Below are positions 27,214 through 33,003 of a stretch of DNA of 64,000 nucleotides, piece by piece. The stretch covers positions 186,001 through 250,000 of the forward strand of contig CACNNQ010000001.1 of assembly GCA_902621855.1 (NCBI GenBank), read 5' to 3'. The notes beneath the pieces were generated by a model that saw only the letters and a program-made list of their open reading frames with translations, was not told where the DNA came from and ran no database searches. Each line of letters starts with the position of its first letter. Position 1 is the first letter of the stretch. A program made the position numbers and the translations under genes. Source of the stretch: an uncultured Alphaproteobacteria bacterium (GTDB lineage Bacteria; Pseudomonadota; Alphaproteobacteria; HIMB59; GCA-002718135).

Positions 27214-28299
27214 ATGAACCAAGAAAATAGTTTCGTTCAATTTAAAAAAATAGACAAAAGTTATGATGGCGAAATATTAGTTGTAAAAAATTTAAACTTA
27301 GACATTTCGAAGGGTGAATTTGTAACAATGCTTGGTCCATCAGGTTCAGGCAAAACTACAACATTAATGATGTTAGCTGGTTTTGAAACACCAACTAATG
27401 GTGAAATTTATTTAGATTCAATGCCAATAAGTAAAATCCCTCCCTATGAAAGAGAAATAGGCATGGTATTTCAAAATTATGCATTATTCCCACACATGAC
27501 AGTTCAAGAAAATCTAGCCTTTCCTCTTGAAGTTAGAAAAATATCTAAATCTGAAACAAAGGAAAAAGTTCAAAAAGCACTTGATATGGTTGAGTTAGGT
27601 AATTTTGGAACTCGTTTTCCTGCACAATTATCTGGTGGGCAACAGCAACGAGTAGCCTTAGCTAGAGCACTGGTCTTTGAGCCCAGACTGGTTTTAATGG
27701 ATGAACCTCTTGGAGCATTGGATAAAAATTTAAGAGAGCAAATGCAATATGAAATAAAACACATTCATGATAGGATTGGTATAACTGTTGTTTATGTGAC
27801 ACACGATCAAAGTGAAGCATTAACAATGTCTAATAGAATTGCAGTTTTTAATGATGGAGTTGTTCAACAATTATCTACTCCAGATATTTTATATGAAAAA
27901 CCTCAAAACTCTTTTGTTGCAAAATTTATAGGTGAAAACAATACTTTAAACGGCGTTGTTAAAGAGATTAATGGTAGTACTTGTGTTGTTGATCTTGATA
28001 ACAATCAAGGAACAGTAACAGCGCTTAAAGTAAATGTAAATGAAATCGGAGAAAAGACTCAATTATCAATTAGACCTGAGAGAGTATCAATTGATAAAAA
28101 TATATCTGGAGCTAATACTTTTAGCGGAAAAGTTGAAGAACTTATTTATCTTGGAGATCATATAAGAGCTAGATTAGATGTTTGTGGTAATAATGAATTC
28201 ATTGTCAAAGTACCAAATGAAGGAAGCTTCAATCATAAAGAAGGAGATACTCTAAATTTAAGTTGGAACTCTGAAGATGTTAGAGCTTTGGATATCTAA
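27214..28299 (+). CDS. potA: ABC transporter ATPase, PotA-like
   Basis: ATP-binding subunit of a polyamine/opine-type importer. It has 361 residues with Walker A LGPSGSGKTTT near residue 41, Q-loop FQNYALFPHM near 89, signature LSGGQQQRVALARAL near 138, Walker B LVLMDEPLGALD near 157 and switch histidine VTHDQSEA near 195. The C-terminal third is a TOBE domain (LSIRPERVSIDKNI). It leads the potA-D-B-C-like set; the binding-protein gene follows after 127 bases with T-rich DNA. Confidence 0.93.
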   Translation: MNQENSFVQFKKIDKSYDGEILVVKNLNLDISKGEFVTMLGPSGSGKTTTLMMLAGFETPTNGEIYLDSMPISKIPPYEREIGMVFQNYALFPHMTVQENLAFPLEVRKISKSETKEKVQKALDMVELGNFGTRFPAQLSGGQQQRVALARALVFEPRLVLMDEPLGALDKNLREQMQYEIKHIHDRIGITVVYVTHDQSEALTMSNRIAVFNDGVVQQLSTPDILYEKPQNSFVAKFIGENNTLNGVVKEINGSTCVVDLDNNQGTVTALKVNVNEIGEKTQLSIRPERVSIDKNISGANTFSGKVEELIYLGDHIRARLDVCGNNEFIVKVPNEGSFNHKEGDTLNLSWNSEDVRALDI

Positions 28300-28426: not shown

Positions 28427-29530
28427 ATGTCTAAATTAATAAAAGCCTTCTTATTCGCATCAATCATTTGCGCTCCATTTGCAGCTAGCGCTGTAACTGT
28501 TGCTTCATGGGGTGGTGCTTATACAGAAAGTCAACAAAAAGCATATGCTGACACATATTCTGATCCTGGATCAATTGTATTCGAAAACTACAACGGAGGT
28601 TTAGGAGAAGTTAGAGCTCAAGTAGAGAGTGGAAGCGTAACATGGGATCTAGTAGATGTATTACCTGGTGACGCAATAACAGGTTGCGATGAAGGATTAT
28701 TTGAAGATATTTCAAGTGAAATTGCATCTATGGGTGTTCCAGGACCAGATGGTGAGTCAATTGCAGAAGATATGGAAAATAATGGACTTGAGTATCACTC
28801 AGGTTGGGATTGTTGTGTTCCACAAATTTTCTGGACTTACGTAGTATTCTATGATCCAGATGCTTTCCCTGGTGAAAAACCAGATAGCATGGCTGATTTC
28901 TTTGATGTGGAAAAATTTCCAGGTAAAAGAGGTATTCACACTTGGGCAACAGGTATAATTGAGAAAGCTATGGTAGCAGATGGTGTTGAACCAAATGCTG
29001 TACCAACAGTTTTAGAAAAACAGACTGGTGCACTTGATAGAGCTTTTGCAAAACTAGATACAATTAAAGATCACGTTGTATTTTGGTCTTCAGGTTCAAA
29101 GCCTCTTGAACTAGTAAAAAGTGGTGAGGTTGTAATGGCTATTGCTTATAATGGACGCGTAGGTGCGGCTAACCTTGCTGAAGGTGAAAACTTTGAATAT
29201 ATTTGGGAAGGACAAGTTCTTGACCAAGAATATTTATGCTTAACAGCTGGTGCTCCAAATAGAGATGCTGCTCTTGATTTCATGATGCATGCTTCTTCTC
29301 CAGAGTCACAAGCTGAGCAAGCTAAGTATATCACATATGGACCAATGAGAGCTTCTGGTATTCCAATCATCGTTAATGGTGAACCATGGGGACCAGGCGG
29401 TGTAGATATCATGCCTCATATGCCTAACACTCCAGAACGTTTAGCAGTTTCAATCGTAAGTGATCCACAGTGGTGGTCAGATAACGGTGCAGAAATTGAT
29501 GAACGTTATGCTGCTTGGATGGGTAACTAA
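28427..29530 (+). CDS. potD: Polyamine-type ABC substrate-binding protein, PotD-like
   Basis: A 367-residue periplasmic binding protein with a clear signal peptide (MSKLIKAFLFASIICAPFAA, cut near residue 22). The mature part starts VTVASWGGAYTESQQ, the usual opening of the PotD/SBP_bac_8 group. Later blocks are WDLVDVLPGDA near residue 72 and MAIAYNGRVGAAN near 237. The protein is acidic and strongly expressed by appearance: full Shine-Dalgarno site and a stem-loop right after the stop. Spermidine, putrescine or an opine/betaine-like amine are possible ligands; the neighbours (amine oxidase, ALDH, gamma-glutamyl ligase) favour an amine. Confidence 0.88.
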   Translation: MSKLIKAFLFASIICAPFAASAVTVASWGGAYTESQQKAYADTYSDPGSIVFENYNGGLGEVRAQVESGSVTWDLVDVLPGDAITGCDEGLFEDISSEIASMGVPGPDGESIAEDMENNGLEYHSGWDCCVPQIFWTYVVFYDPDAFPGEKPDSMADFFDVEKFPGKRGIHTWATGIIEKAMVADGVEPNAVPTVLEKQTGALDRAFAKLDTIKDHVVFWSSGSKPLELVKSGEVVMAIAYNGRVGAANLAEGENFEYIWEGQVLDQEYLCLTAGAPNRDAALDFMMHASSPESQAEQAKYITYGPMRASGIPIIVNGEPWGPGGVDIMPHMPNTPERLAVSIVSDPQWWSDNGAEIDERYAAWMGN

Positions 29531-29561: not shown

Positions 29562-29587
29562 AAAGGCGAGATTTATCTCGCCTTTTT
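29562..29587 (+). terminator. Stem-loop with T-run after the binding-protein gene
   Basis: GGCGAGA (29565-29571) and TCTCGCC (29576-29582) form a perfect seven-base stem, extended by AAA/TTT, around loop TTTA and followed by TTTTT. It lies 31 bases after the binding-protein stop and ahead of the permease ribosome site. It probably acts as a partial terminator and 3' protector, so that the binding protein is made in excess of the membrane subunits. Confidence 0.88.
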
Positions 29588-29603
29588 AATTTAGGAGGTT
29601 TTC

Positions 29604-30869
29604 ATTTCTACTGCAGAATTACTGACAACAGATGGAGTTCCATTAAAACAAAGTCTAAAAAAGGCTGAGAGAAGAAATAAAATCAGAGCTTTTTTATTAG
29701 TTTTTCCTCTATTACTTTTTATTATCGTTACATTTGTAATGCCCATAGGGGATATGCTTCTTAGAAGTGTCGATGATAGTCAAATAAATACTGTTTTTCC
29801 AAATACATTCGAAGAATATAAAAAATGGGACAAAGAAAAAGATGAACTACCTCCAGAGGAAGTTTACAAAGCATTATTCCAAGAACTGGCATATGGTGAA
29901 AAAGTTCAAGTTGGTAGAGCCTTAACTAGAATGAACTATTCTAAATCTGGCTGGAAAAGCCTTATAAAGAAAACATCAAGGGCTATCAAAAAAGTGGTTA
30001 AAAAAGATGAATTCCCAGACTCTTATAAAGAATTTTTTATTGAAACTAATGAAAAATGGGCTGATCCAACTTACTGGTATGCAATGGGTCAAATGGTAAA
30101 TAATCAAACATCAATCTATTATTGGAATGCAATAGATAGAACATTTGATCAAGAATTAAATGTTGTACAACAAGAAGAGGATAGAAGAGTTTATGTTCAA
30201 ACATGGTTAAAAACATTAAAAGTTAGTATTTACGTTACACTCTTTTGTTTAATTCTTGGATTTCCTGTTGCGCATTTATTAGCGAATTTACCACTAAGAT
30301 ATAGTAATCTTCTAATGATTTTTGTTTTACTTCCATTTTGGACCTCTTTACTTGTTAGAACAACTGCTTGGATAGTAATGCTTCAACAAAAAGGTGTTAT
30401 AAATGGTGTTTTAGTTTGGTTAGGAATACTTAGTGATGATGGCAGAATAGCTATGGTTTATAATGAAACTGGAACACTCATAGCAATGACTCAAATTTTA
30501 TTACCTTTTATGATACTTCCCCTCTATAGTGTAATGAGAGTTATTCCTAAAAGTCACATGAGGGCAGCACAAAATTTAGGAGCAAAACCCGTTATGGCTT
30601 TTTGGAGAGTTTATCTTCCTCAAACTATACCTGGTATGAGTGCAGGTGGATTGTTGGTTTTTGTTTTGGCAATTGGATATTTTATTACTCCTGAATTAGT
30701 TGGAGGAAAAGATGGTAAGTTAATTGGCAGTTGGATAGCATATCATCTTAAAACAACCCTTAACTGGGGATTAACAGCAGCACTGGGAGCAATTCTCCTT
30801 GGCTTTATGTTAATATTTTATTGGCTTTATAATAAAATTGTTGGCATAGATAATATTAAACTAGGATAA
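29604..30869 (+). CDS. potB: ABC permease, PotB-like, apparently with ATT start
   Basis: First membrane subunit of the amine importer. The first in-frame ATG is at 29739, but the frame is open back to 29595 and reads STAELLTTDGVPLKQSLKKA then a full first membrane helix (AFLLVFPLLLFIIVTFVMPIG), which that ATG would cut off. A perfect AGGAGG (29593-29598) lies five bases before ATT 29604, and there is no ATG, GTG or TTG in frame. I infer initiation at ATT, giving about 421 residues; CTG 29622 is the alternative. A periplasmic insert of about 140 residues separates helix 1 from helix 2. The coupling loop AAQNLGAKPVMAFWRVYLPQ marks a permease. Confidence 0.85.
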   Translation: MSTAELLTTDGVPLKQSLKKAERRNKIRAFLLVFPLLLFIIVTFVMPIGDMLLRSVDDSQINTVFPNTFEEYKKWDKEKDELPPEEVYKALFQELAYGEKVQVGRALTRMNYSKSGWKSLIKKTSRAIKKVVKKDEFPDSYKEFFIETNEKWADPTYWYAMGQMVNNQTSIYYWNAIDRTFDQELNVVQQEEDRRVYVQTWLKTLKVSIYVTLFCLILGFPVAHLLANLPLRYSNLLMIFVLLPFWTSLLVRTTAWIVMLQQKGVINGVLVWLGILSDDGRIAMVYNETGTLIAMTQILLPFMILPLYSVMRVIPKSHMRAAQNLGAKPVMAFWRVYLPQTIPGMSAGGLLVFVLAIGYFITPELVGGKDGKLIGSWIAYHLKTTLNWGLTAALGAILLGFMLIFYWLYNKIVGIDNIKLG

Positions 30870-30871
30870 TT

Positions 30872-31768
30872 ATGGCATTACCAACTTACGCAACTCCAAT
30901 TCAAAGAACTTATTATTATGCTTATTTATTTTTTTGTGCAGTTGTATTCTTTTTTTTGGTTGCACCACTAATAGCAATTGTCCCGATATCATTTAGTGAA
31001 TCACCCTTTATGGTTTTTACAGAGGGCATGTTAGCATGGCCACCTGATCCTGAAGCTTGGTCACTAAGATGGTACAGAAATATGATTGGAGATTGTAGTG
31101 CTGAAGTTGTTTCTTCAACTGTACCTTGTTCAACAAAATGGATGAGGGGAACAGTTAATAGTTTTTATATTGGAATTATCGCTACTTTCATAGCAACTGT
31201 TCTTGGTACAATGGCAGCATTGGGCTTAAGCAGACCACATATGCCTTACAAAGCACTTATAATGTCAATACTAATTTCACCAATGATTGTTCCATTAATA
31301 ATAACTGCTGCTGGAATGTTTTTTTTCTATGCAAGAATTAATCTTGTATATACTTTTACTGGAGTAATATTAGCTCATGTAGCATTAGCAACACCTTTTG
31401 TTGTAATTACTGTTACTGCCACATTGGTTGGTTTTGATATGAACATGGTTAAAGCGGCTCAAAGTTTAGGTGCAAAACCAATGAGAACTTTCTTTAAAGT
31501 GATTATGCCCTTAATTTTACCAGGAATTATTTCGGGAGCTTTATTTGCATTCATCACTTCATTTGATGAAGTTGTAATTGTAATGTTTATGGCAAGCATT
31601 GATCAGCTTACAATACCAAAACAAATGTGGGCTGGTATACGTCAAGAAATCAGTCCAGTAATTTTATGTATGGCAACATGTTTAGTTATACTTTCAATTG
31701 TTCTATTAACTACAGTAGAATTACTAAGAAGGAGAGCTGAAAGACTGCGCGGTATTAAAGCTAGATAA
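30872..31768 (+). CDS. potC: ABC permease, PotC-like
   Basis: Second membrane subunit, 298 residues and six helices. The ATPase-contact loop AAQSLGAKPMRTFFKVIMPLILPGI is near residue 196. The first periplasmic loop carries a small insert with two cysteines (DCSAEVVSSTVPCSTKW) that could form a disulfide. It follows potB after two bases and precedes the oxidase gene by five, making one operon of uptake and first oxidation. Confidence 0.9.
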   Translation: MALPTYATPIQRTYYYAYLFFCAVVFFFLVAPLIAIVPISFSESPFMVFTEGMLAWPPDPEAWSLRWYRNMIGDCSAEVVSSTVPCSTKWMRGTVNSFYIGIIATFIATVLGTMAALGLSRPHMPYKALIMSILISPMIVPLIITAAGMFFFYARINLVYTFTGVILAHVALATPFVVITVTATLVGFDMNMVKAAQSLGAKPMRTFFKVIMPLILPGIISGALFAFITSFDEVVIVMFMASIDQLTIPKQMWAGIRQEISPVILCMATCLVILSIVLLTTVELLRRRAERLRGIKAR

Positions 31769-31773
31769 AAAAA

Positions 31774-33003
31774 GTGAAAAATATTGCTGTTGTTGGAGCT
31801 GGAATAGTAGGCATCTGTTGTGCTTATTTTTTAAAAAAATCTGGATTAAGTGTAACTCTCATTGATAGAGAAAATCCTGGCACAATGACAAGTTTTGGTC
31901 ACGCATGTAGTTTTGCTGATTACGCTAATGTACCTGTGAATTATCCTGGATTAATTTGGGATATACCTAAAATGCTTCTAAAAAAAGATGGTCCTTTGGC
32001 AGTTGATTTTTTTTATATTGTTAAACATTTACCCTGGGCATTAAGTTTCTTAAAAAATTGTAAAAAAGAAAAAGTTGATGAAATAGCTAGCTCATTGACA
32101 AACTTATTAAAACATTCTCAGATATCTTATGACGAAATATTTAAAGAAGTAAATGTTCAAGAGTATATTAGTCATGAAGAAAATCTATATTTATTTGATA
32201 CCAAAAAATCTTTACTTGATTATGAATATGCTAACATCATTAGAAAAAATAATAGAGTTAAGGTTAGAAATTTAAACAAAGAGCAAGTTAAAGAATTGGA
32301 ACCAAATATTGCCGATGTTTATTTTGCAGGTCAATTATTTACTGGGTCAAGACATACAACAAATCCTTTAGCAATAAGCATAAAAATTTTTGATAAGTTT
32401 TTAGAATCAGGGGGTATCTACATAAAGCAAAATGTAACCAATCTAATTCAGAAAGAAAATAGTATAGATTTATCTTTAGGAGATAAAAAAAATAATTTTG
32501 ATAAAATTATTGTCTGTGCAGGAGCTTGGTCTAATCAAATTGCTAATATGATCGGAGAAAACTTCCCTCTTGATACTGAAAGAGGATATCATATCCTTTT
32601 TAATACTAATGAAAAACTAATTAAAAGACCTGTTGCTTGGTCTGAGTCTGGTTTTTATCTAATTCAAATTCATGATGGAGTGAGAGCTGCAGGCACAGTA
32701 GAAATAGCTGGTATGAATAAGAAACCTAATTTAAAAAGAATTAAAATGATTGAAAGGCAATCTAGAAAAGTCTTACCCCAACTAGGAGAAATAAAATCAA
32801 CATGGATGGGTAGAAGGCCAACATTACCGGATTCTCTACCTATTATTGGTACATCATCTAAAAATAAAAATATTATCTATGCTTTTGGTCATCAACACAT
32901 AGGATGGACTCTAGGTGCAATTACAGGAAAAATTGTAAGCACAATATCAAATGATAAAACTCCTAATATTAACATTGAAGCTTACTCACCAAATAGATTT
33001 TAA
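31774..33003 (+). CDS. FAD-dependent amine/D-amino-acid oxidoreductase, DadA-like
   Basis: A 409-residue flavoprotein of the DAO family. The FAD motif VVGAGIVGICCAYFLKKSG starts at residue 5, TMTSFGHACSFADYANVP near 39 resembles DadA, and the C-terminal WMGRRPTLPDSLPIIG and FGHQHIGWTLGAITGKIV are typical of DadA-type dehydrogenases. It oxidises a primary or secondary amine, feeding electrons probably to the quinone pool. Position behind a Pot-like importer and ahead of a convergent ALDH suggests oxidation of an imported or gamma-glutamylated amine. It starts at GTG and overlaps the convergent ALDH gene by four bases. Confidence 0.85.
   Translation: MKNIAVVGAGIVGICCAYFLKKSGLSVTLIDRENPGTMTSFGHACSFADYANVPVNYPGLIWDIPKMLLKKDGPLAVDFFYIVKHLPWALSFLKNCKKEKVDEIASSLTNLLKHSQISYDEIFKEVNVQEYISHEENLYLFDTKKSLLDYEYANIIRKNNRVKVRNLNKEQVKELEPNIADVYFAGQLFTGSRHTTNPLAISIKIFDKFLESGGIYIKQNVTNLIQKENSIDLSLGDKKNNFDKIIVCAGAWSNQIANMIGENFPLDTERGYHILFNTNEKLIKRPVAWSESGFYLIQIHDGVRAAGTVEIAGMNKKPNLKRIKMIERQSRKVLPQLGEIKSTWMGRRPTLPDSLPIIGTSSKNKNIIYAFGHQHIGWTLGAITGKIVSTISNDKTPNINIEAYSPNRF

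Follow-up and report, generated by a model that had tools for sequence, protein, structure and literature searches.

A PotB-like ABC permease gene probably translated from a conserved ATT codon in a family of uncultured Alphaproteobacteria

Introduction

To our knowledge, few ATT starts have been documented. Among them is infC, which starts at ATT, ATA, or ATC in other bacteria. The AUU start of Escherichia coli infC is IF3-controlled, as reported in PMC5472188 and in references of PMC13009471. AUU and AUA starts of Staphylococcus aureus that are preceded by extended conserved Shine-Dalgarno sequences (SDs) give about 10% of AUG expression (PMC13009471), and the GTC start of Streptomyces sigR, which IF3 represses, determines the ratio of two proteins made from one operon (PMC5472188). 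Strong SDs tend to go with weaker starts, and compensation between start codon and SD has been documented; in the same study AUG turned into AUU once among 61,358 ancestral AUG starts (PMC5622118).

Here, we describe a permease gene, potB, that appears to begin at ATT throughout a bacterial family. The gene lies in a 64,000-nucleotide stretch of DNA (hereafter, the window) from an alphaproteobacterial genome of 1.48 Mb in 21 contigs. The host presumably belongs to the marine HIMB59/AEGEAN-169 group.

Results

Start site of the PotB-like permease gene

The following features define the start of the gene in the window.

29592..29594, forward strand: in-frame TAG stop that overlaps the SD and closes the upstream frame, as read from the sequence
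29593..29598, forward strand: Shine-Dalgarno AGGAGG, 5 nt before ATT; GGAGG is present in 70 of 70 orthologues
29604..29606, forward strand: probable ATT start codon of the PotB-like permease; ATT in 69 of 69 distinct family orthologues
29604..30869, forward strand: PotB-like ABC permease (PF00528), 421 amino acids counted from ATT

The potB reading frame around the start is ...TTA ATT TAG GAG GTT TTC ATT TCT ACT GCA..., with the spacer TTTTC at 29599-29603 between AGGAGG and ATT. The in-frame stop stands four codons upstream of ATT, and only the codons GAG, GTT, TTC, and ATT separate it from the conserved protein. An earlier sequence-only reading of this locus had reported a perfect AGGAGG five bases before ATT 29604 and the lack of any in-frame ATG, GTG, or TTG upstream of ATG 29739. 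The letters and coordinates of the former are correct; the latter is right as well, and the TAG at 29592-29594 also shuts the frame. The leader and the complete first transmembrane helix (TM1) that were described upstream of ATG 29739 are indeed encoded there.

This ATG, downstream of ATT and inside TM1, is the first canonical in-frame codon of potB in the window, which has no usable canonical in-frame start at the conserved PotB N-terminus. In the 73-nt gap after the binding-protein gene, ATG and GTG are absent from all frames, and the single TTG (29533) is out of frame. The sole other candidate start noted between ATT 29604 and ATG 29739 is CTG 29622. The 3' end of the organism's own 16S rRNA bears GGATCACCTCCTTTCT, the usual anti-SD, with which the potB SD pairs over 7 nt (AGGAGGT).

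Conservation of the ATT codon across the family

Genomes of the order and public contigs supplied the orthologues; removal of identical sequences left 70 with the start region and 69 at full length. The set spans at least five genera of one bacterial family (starts are displayed for g3, g5, g6, and g7). Most of the publicly recorded relatives are single-cell genomes of uncultured Alphaproteobacteria, and one is Pelagibacteraceae bacterium AG-337-I02. Alignment of the locus across relatives, which had been proposed as a check on the sequence-only reading, gave ATT and not ATG in all 69 distinct full-length orthologues. The spacing from GGAGG to ATT is 5 nt in 68 of the 70 orthologues and 4 nt in the other 2. 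When 162 genomes of the order were searched for the pattern GGAGG-N4/5-ATN-TCTAC, no ATG, ATA, or ATC form appeared at the potB locus, where the sites found were all ATT; the few ATA and ATC matches were all at unrelated places.

The constancy of ATT stands out against the rest of the gene. None of the 22 conserved internal isoleucine codons holds one codon across the same 69 genes, and of the 243 invariant residues that are neither methionine nor tryptophan, just 3 do so. Over a tree whose total length is 5.8 substitutions per site, no change fell on the start codon, whereas each of the 22 conserved isoleucine codons changed 3 to 16 times (mean, 8.8). Because ATT is invariant while isoleucine codons vary, selection must act on the triplet itself, and both sequencing error and a recent ATG-to-ATT mutation, which had been entertained from the single sequence, are ruled out: ATT recurs in 69 distinct sequences, mostly from single-cell assemblies, and the change is old, having been fixed no later than the base of the family. 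The strong result is the absence of any start-codon change rather than the missing reversion to ATG. Among 51 fourfold sites with a T majority, 36 show G somewhere and 15 never do, so the non-reappearance of ATG is weak evidence against ATG.

Codon 2 (TCT) is also nearly invariant, so that some further constraint seems to act around the start. The near-invariance would fit selection on ATTTCTAC and its surroundings as an RNA structure or a regulator site, for which ATT would be kept besides serving as the translation start, and pairing of GGAGG with ATTTCT, largely by G-U pairs, is predicted in some sequences. We regard this explanation as improbable, since the predicted hairpin is not common to all sequences and ATT persists even where the next codons differ, as in ATT AAC ACT and ATT ACA GAA. 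A conserved start-codon hairpin was considered as a candidate and is not supported, the folds differing between relatives.

The bases between the SD and ATT vary among orthologues, and two sequences differ there by 1 nt in length; this interval is therefore not coding. These data bear on the alternative that translation proceeds from an upstream canonical codon, with the SD unused. A canonical in-frame codon does lie between the upstream stop and ATT in 51 of 70 orthologues, mostly a TTG formed where TT precedes GGAGG (TTGGAGG), and most genes of the host genome have no SD. However, such a codon is not conserved, being missing in 19 of 70 orthologues, one of them the gene in the window, in which TAG overlaps the SD, and a start there would leave the invariance of ATT unexplained while other isoleucine codons vary. 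The in-frame stop and the 1-nt indel that two sequences have between SD and ATT likewise argue against an upstream start, which we judge highly improbable; the TTG found in many relatives is considered incidental. In 11 of 70 orthologues, a canonical codon is missing on both sides of ATT.

Two downstream codons had been named as possible starts. Initiation at CTG 29622 fails because this codon is not conserved, relatives reading TTA, CTT, TTG, or CTA there. A start at ATG 29739, which no canonical codon precedes in the window's own frame, would turn the conservation upstream of it into that of a 5' UTR element. However, when the most distant members compared are set against each other over potB codons 2-45, dN is 0.14-0.16 and dS exceeds 2, that is, strong purifying selection on the protein with saturated synonymous sites. 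The leader and TM1 thus evolve as protein from codon 2 onward, and initiation at ATG 29739 would lose the leader and most of TM1. The orthologues outside the family also carry this N-terminal region, read in frame from starts of their own, and ATG 29739 is almost certainly not the start. The family-wide codon conservation, the fixed SD spacing, and the in-frame stop all strongly back initiation at ATT as first proposed, and we hold with high confidence that potB would be translated from ATT 29604.

In one orthologue (genome G032, L026 / L092), the potB frame is broken near the N-terminus, within roughly the first 40 codons; this may reflect an assembly error or a pseudogene.

Origin of the ATT codon and its Shine-Dalgarno sequence

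Alphaproteobacterial orthologues outside the family share about 48-58% identity among those examined, and their readable starts are mostly ATG, occasionally GTG, and slightly upstream of the aligned region. Because readable outgroup orthologues use ATG and rarely GTG, ATT and its SD are a derived pair: a canonical start (ATG) would have been replaced in the family ancestor and the new pair kept unchanged since. In G366 and G455, the outgroups nearest in architecture (each a single contig of 1.2-1.3 Mb), a terminator-like hairpin and a T tract are followed by ATG without an SD, in the layout hairpin-TTTTTTATTT-ATG or one much like it.

In five genomes placed in the genus of the host (G008, G036, G068, G092, and G120; copies L028, L029, L166, L167, and L168), the operon is present in a diverged version that has ATG and lacks an SD. 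Identity is 52% for PotB, 42% for PotD, and 65% for PotA, and this version possibly represents replacement by transfer.

Organization of the transporter operon

The gene order is potA-potD-[hairpin]-potB-potC-DAO oxidoreductase, with a convergent aldehyde dehydrogenase gene behind. Besides potB, the operon comprises the following features.

27214..28299, forward strand: ATP-binding protein PotA; TIGR01187 at 380.1 bits, above the cut-off of 355.6
28427..29530, forward strand: PotD-like periplasmic binding protein (PF13416), with an ATG start and AGGAGG
29562..29585, forward strand: terminator-like hairpin AAAGGCGAGA-UUUA-UCUCGCCUUU plus T tract between the binding protein and permease genes; -14.4 kcal/mol, z -5.3
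30872..31768, forward strand: PotC-like permease (PF00528, NF007047), with an ATG start 2 nt past the potB stop and without an SD
31774..33003, forward strand: DAO-family FAD oxidoreductase (PF01266) with a GTG start, in the same operon; synteny across the family

The PotB-like permease matches PF00528 (BPD_transp_1) at 50.1 bits, above the gathering cut-off of 26.4, and the E. coli PotB structures 8y5f/8y5i with an E value of 2e-38. Its best NCBIfam match is PotB (NF007044), at 168.6 bits and below the cut-off of 348, and the best NCBIfam match of PotC is PotC (NF007047), under the equivalog cut-off. PotB and PotC are both clear ABC permeases. Since they fall below the equivalog cut-offs, "polyamine-type importer" is the safest name, and the substrate assignment is not certain. 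Translation of potC is probably coupled to that of potB.

The hairpin at 29562-29585 is kept in position across the family, with compensated changes in its stem (AAGGCGAG/CTCGCCTT versus GGGCGAG/CTCGCCC). A similar hairpin with another stem sequence is present in the outgroup genomes G366 and G455.

Initiation signals in the host genome

SDs were surveyed in 274 genes in about 330 kb (G000 contig 1), scored before the best canonical start. An SD of at least 5 nt precedes 36 of the 274 genes (13%) and one of at least 7 nt precedes 8. SDs are scarce in this contig, 219 of the 274 genes having no match of at least 4 nt at normal spacing.

Conserved non-coding sequence and antisense frames dominated a simple comparison of N-terminal extensions with a near relative; an SD-aware scan and a comparison with another genus (G130) were used instead. 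In the scan of 274 genes, potB was the only one with a strong SD before a non-canonical codon, no adjacent canonical codon, and conservation in a relative. It was also alone among the 203 genes with a G130 orthologue in having a long protein stretch, with 42 identities over 48 aligned residues, that precedes every canonical codon, once cases plausibly due to an overlapping gene or tRNA had been set aside. ATT-start genes without an SD would be detectable solely through the G130 comparison.

A special initiator tRNA reading ATT is not supported: among the tRNAs recovered (2 of 32 matches being without a locus), the one with initiator features (C1/A72) has the anticodon CAT. Its anticodon stem consists of A29-U41, G30-C40, and G31-C39 in place of three G-C pairs (G000 tRNA loci L234-L263), a deviation that may be common in Alphaproteobacteria. 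The infC gene of this genus appears to start at a conserved TTG without an SD and not at ATT, ATA, or ATC (L126, L127, L130, and L132-L136), and classical IF3 autoregulation may therefore be absent in this genus.

Discussion

Proposed role of the ATT start

By analogy with the S. aureus and Streptomyces starts, we infer low output and IF3 dependence of potB. The initiator Met-tRNA would mispair with ATT at the third codon position, and IF3 would destabilize the resulting initiation complex; the strong SD (GGAGG, 5 nt upstream) would partly rescue initiation. The expected outcome is low, IF3-dependent synthesis of PotB and, via the 2-nt junction, likewise of PotC. Together, the terminator-like hairpin before the SD and the weak start would produce a large excess of binding protein over membrane channel, which would suit a nutrient-scavenging importer. 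The suggestion of the sequence-only reading that ATT keeps permease output below that of the binding protein is plausible and agrees with the AUU and AUA starts measured in other organisms, and we lean towards limitation of permease output as the role of the codon. The account as a whole, comprising a start at ATT 29604, an old derived pair of ATT and SD, and weak IF3-sensitive initiation that would limit PotB and PotC relative to the binding protein, we consider likely.

Alternatively, ATT could be the true start and yet a frozen, near-neutral accident, with the SD compensating fully, ATA, ATC, and other codons being harmful, and reversion to ATG merely rare. The documented compensation between start codon and SD (PMC5622118) is in line with this explanation, and frequent reversion is not to be expected, G being absent from 15 of the 51 fourfold sites with a T majority. 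However, the S. aureus non-AUG starts with strong SDs still reach only about 10% of AUG expression (PMC13009471), and a beneficial ATG would need one transversion, yet it is found in 0 of 69 sequences. We rate a frozen accident as unlikely, although it deserves more weight than any other alternative considered here.

Rather than a fixed throttle, the ATT start might also be a polyamine- or IF3-responsive switch by which the importer would tune the synthesis of its own channel to the internal polyamine level. Polyamines have been reported to raise fMet-tRNA binding at the weak start codons UUG and GUG in E. coli (PMC4405209, PMC7177335); these cases concern UUG and GUG, not AUU, and such a switch seems improbable.

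One ATT start is fixed through a whole marine bacterial family, in a transporter gene and in an SD-scarce genome, which suggests that a weak start may be maintained on purpose, probably to hold down the amount of membrane channel. The potB gene lends itself well to the question of whether weak starts are actively kept as a means of setting subunit ratios. In addition, gene callers restricted to ATG, GTG, and TTG misplace its start, with loss of the leader and most of TM1 in the window.

Comparison with known systems

E. coli PotABCD, the spermidine/putrescine importer, likewise combines PotA, PotB, and PotC homologues with a binding protein in one operon; the permease described here has 421 amino acids compared to 285 in E. 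coli and scores below the NCBI PotB equivalog cut-off. As to the start itself, E. coli pcnB and infC also initiate at AUU, which is regarded as holding expression low. They are other genes than the one here, however, and infC of this genus appears to use TTG. The AUU start of Borrelia burgdorferi pncA was missed by annotation, which resulted in an N-terminally truncated database entry; pncA is an enzyme gene, unlike the permease gene in our case (PMC13398362).

A group-conserved non-canonical start combined with a strong SD is shared with S. aureus cvfC1 (AUU) and ccpN (AUA), which encode a small protein and a repressor, respectively, rather than a transporter permease (PMC13009471). S. aureus, a Firmicute, uses SDs widely, whereas they are rare here. 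Streptomyces sigR likewise has a non-canonical start and an extensive conserved SD but differs in its codon (GTC, or GTT in some species) and in the products concerned, a sigma factor and an antisigma factor (PMC5472188). The potB gene joins infC, pcnB, sigR, and S. aureus cvfC1 among the known genes with a non-canonical start, and it is the gene itself that is unexpected.
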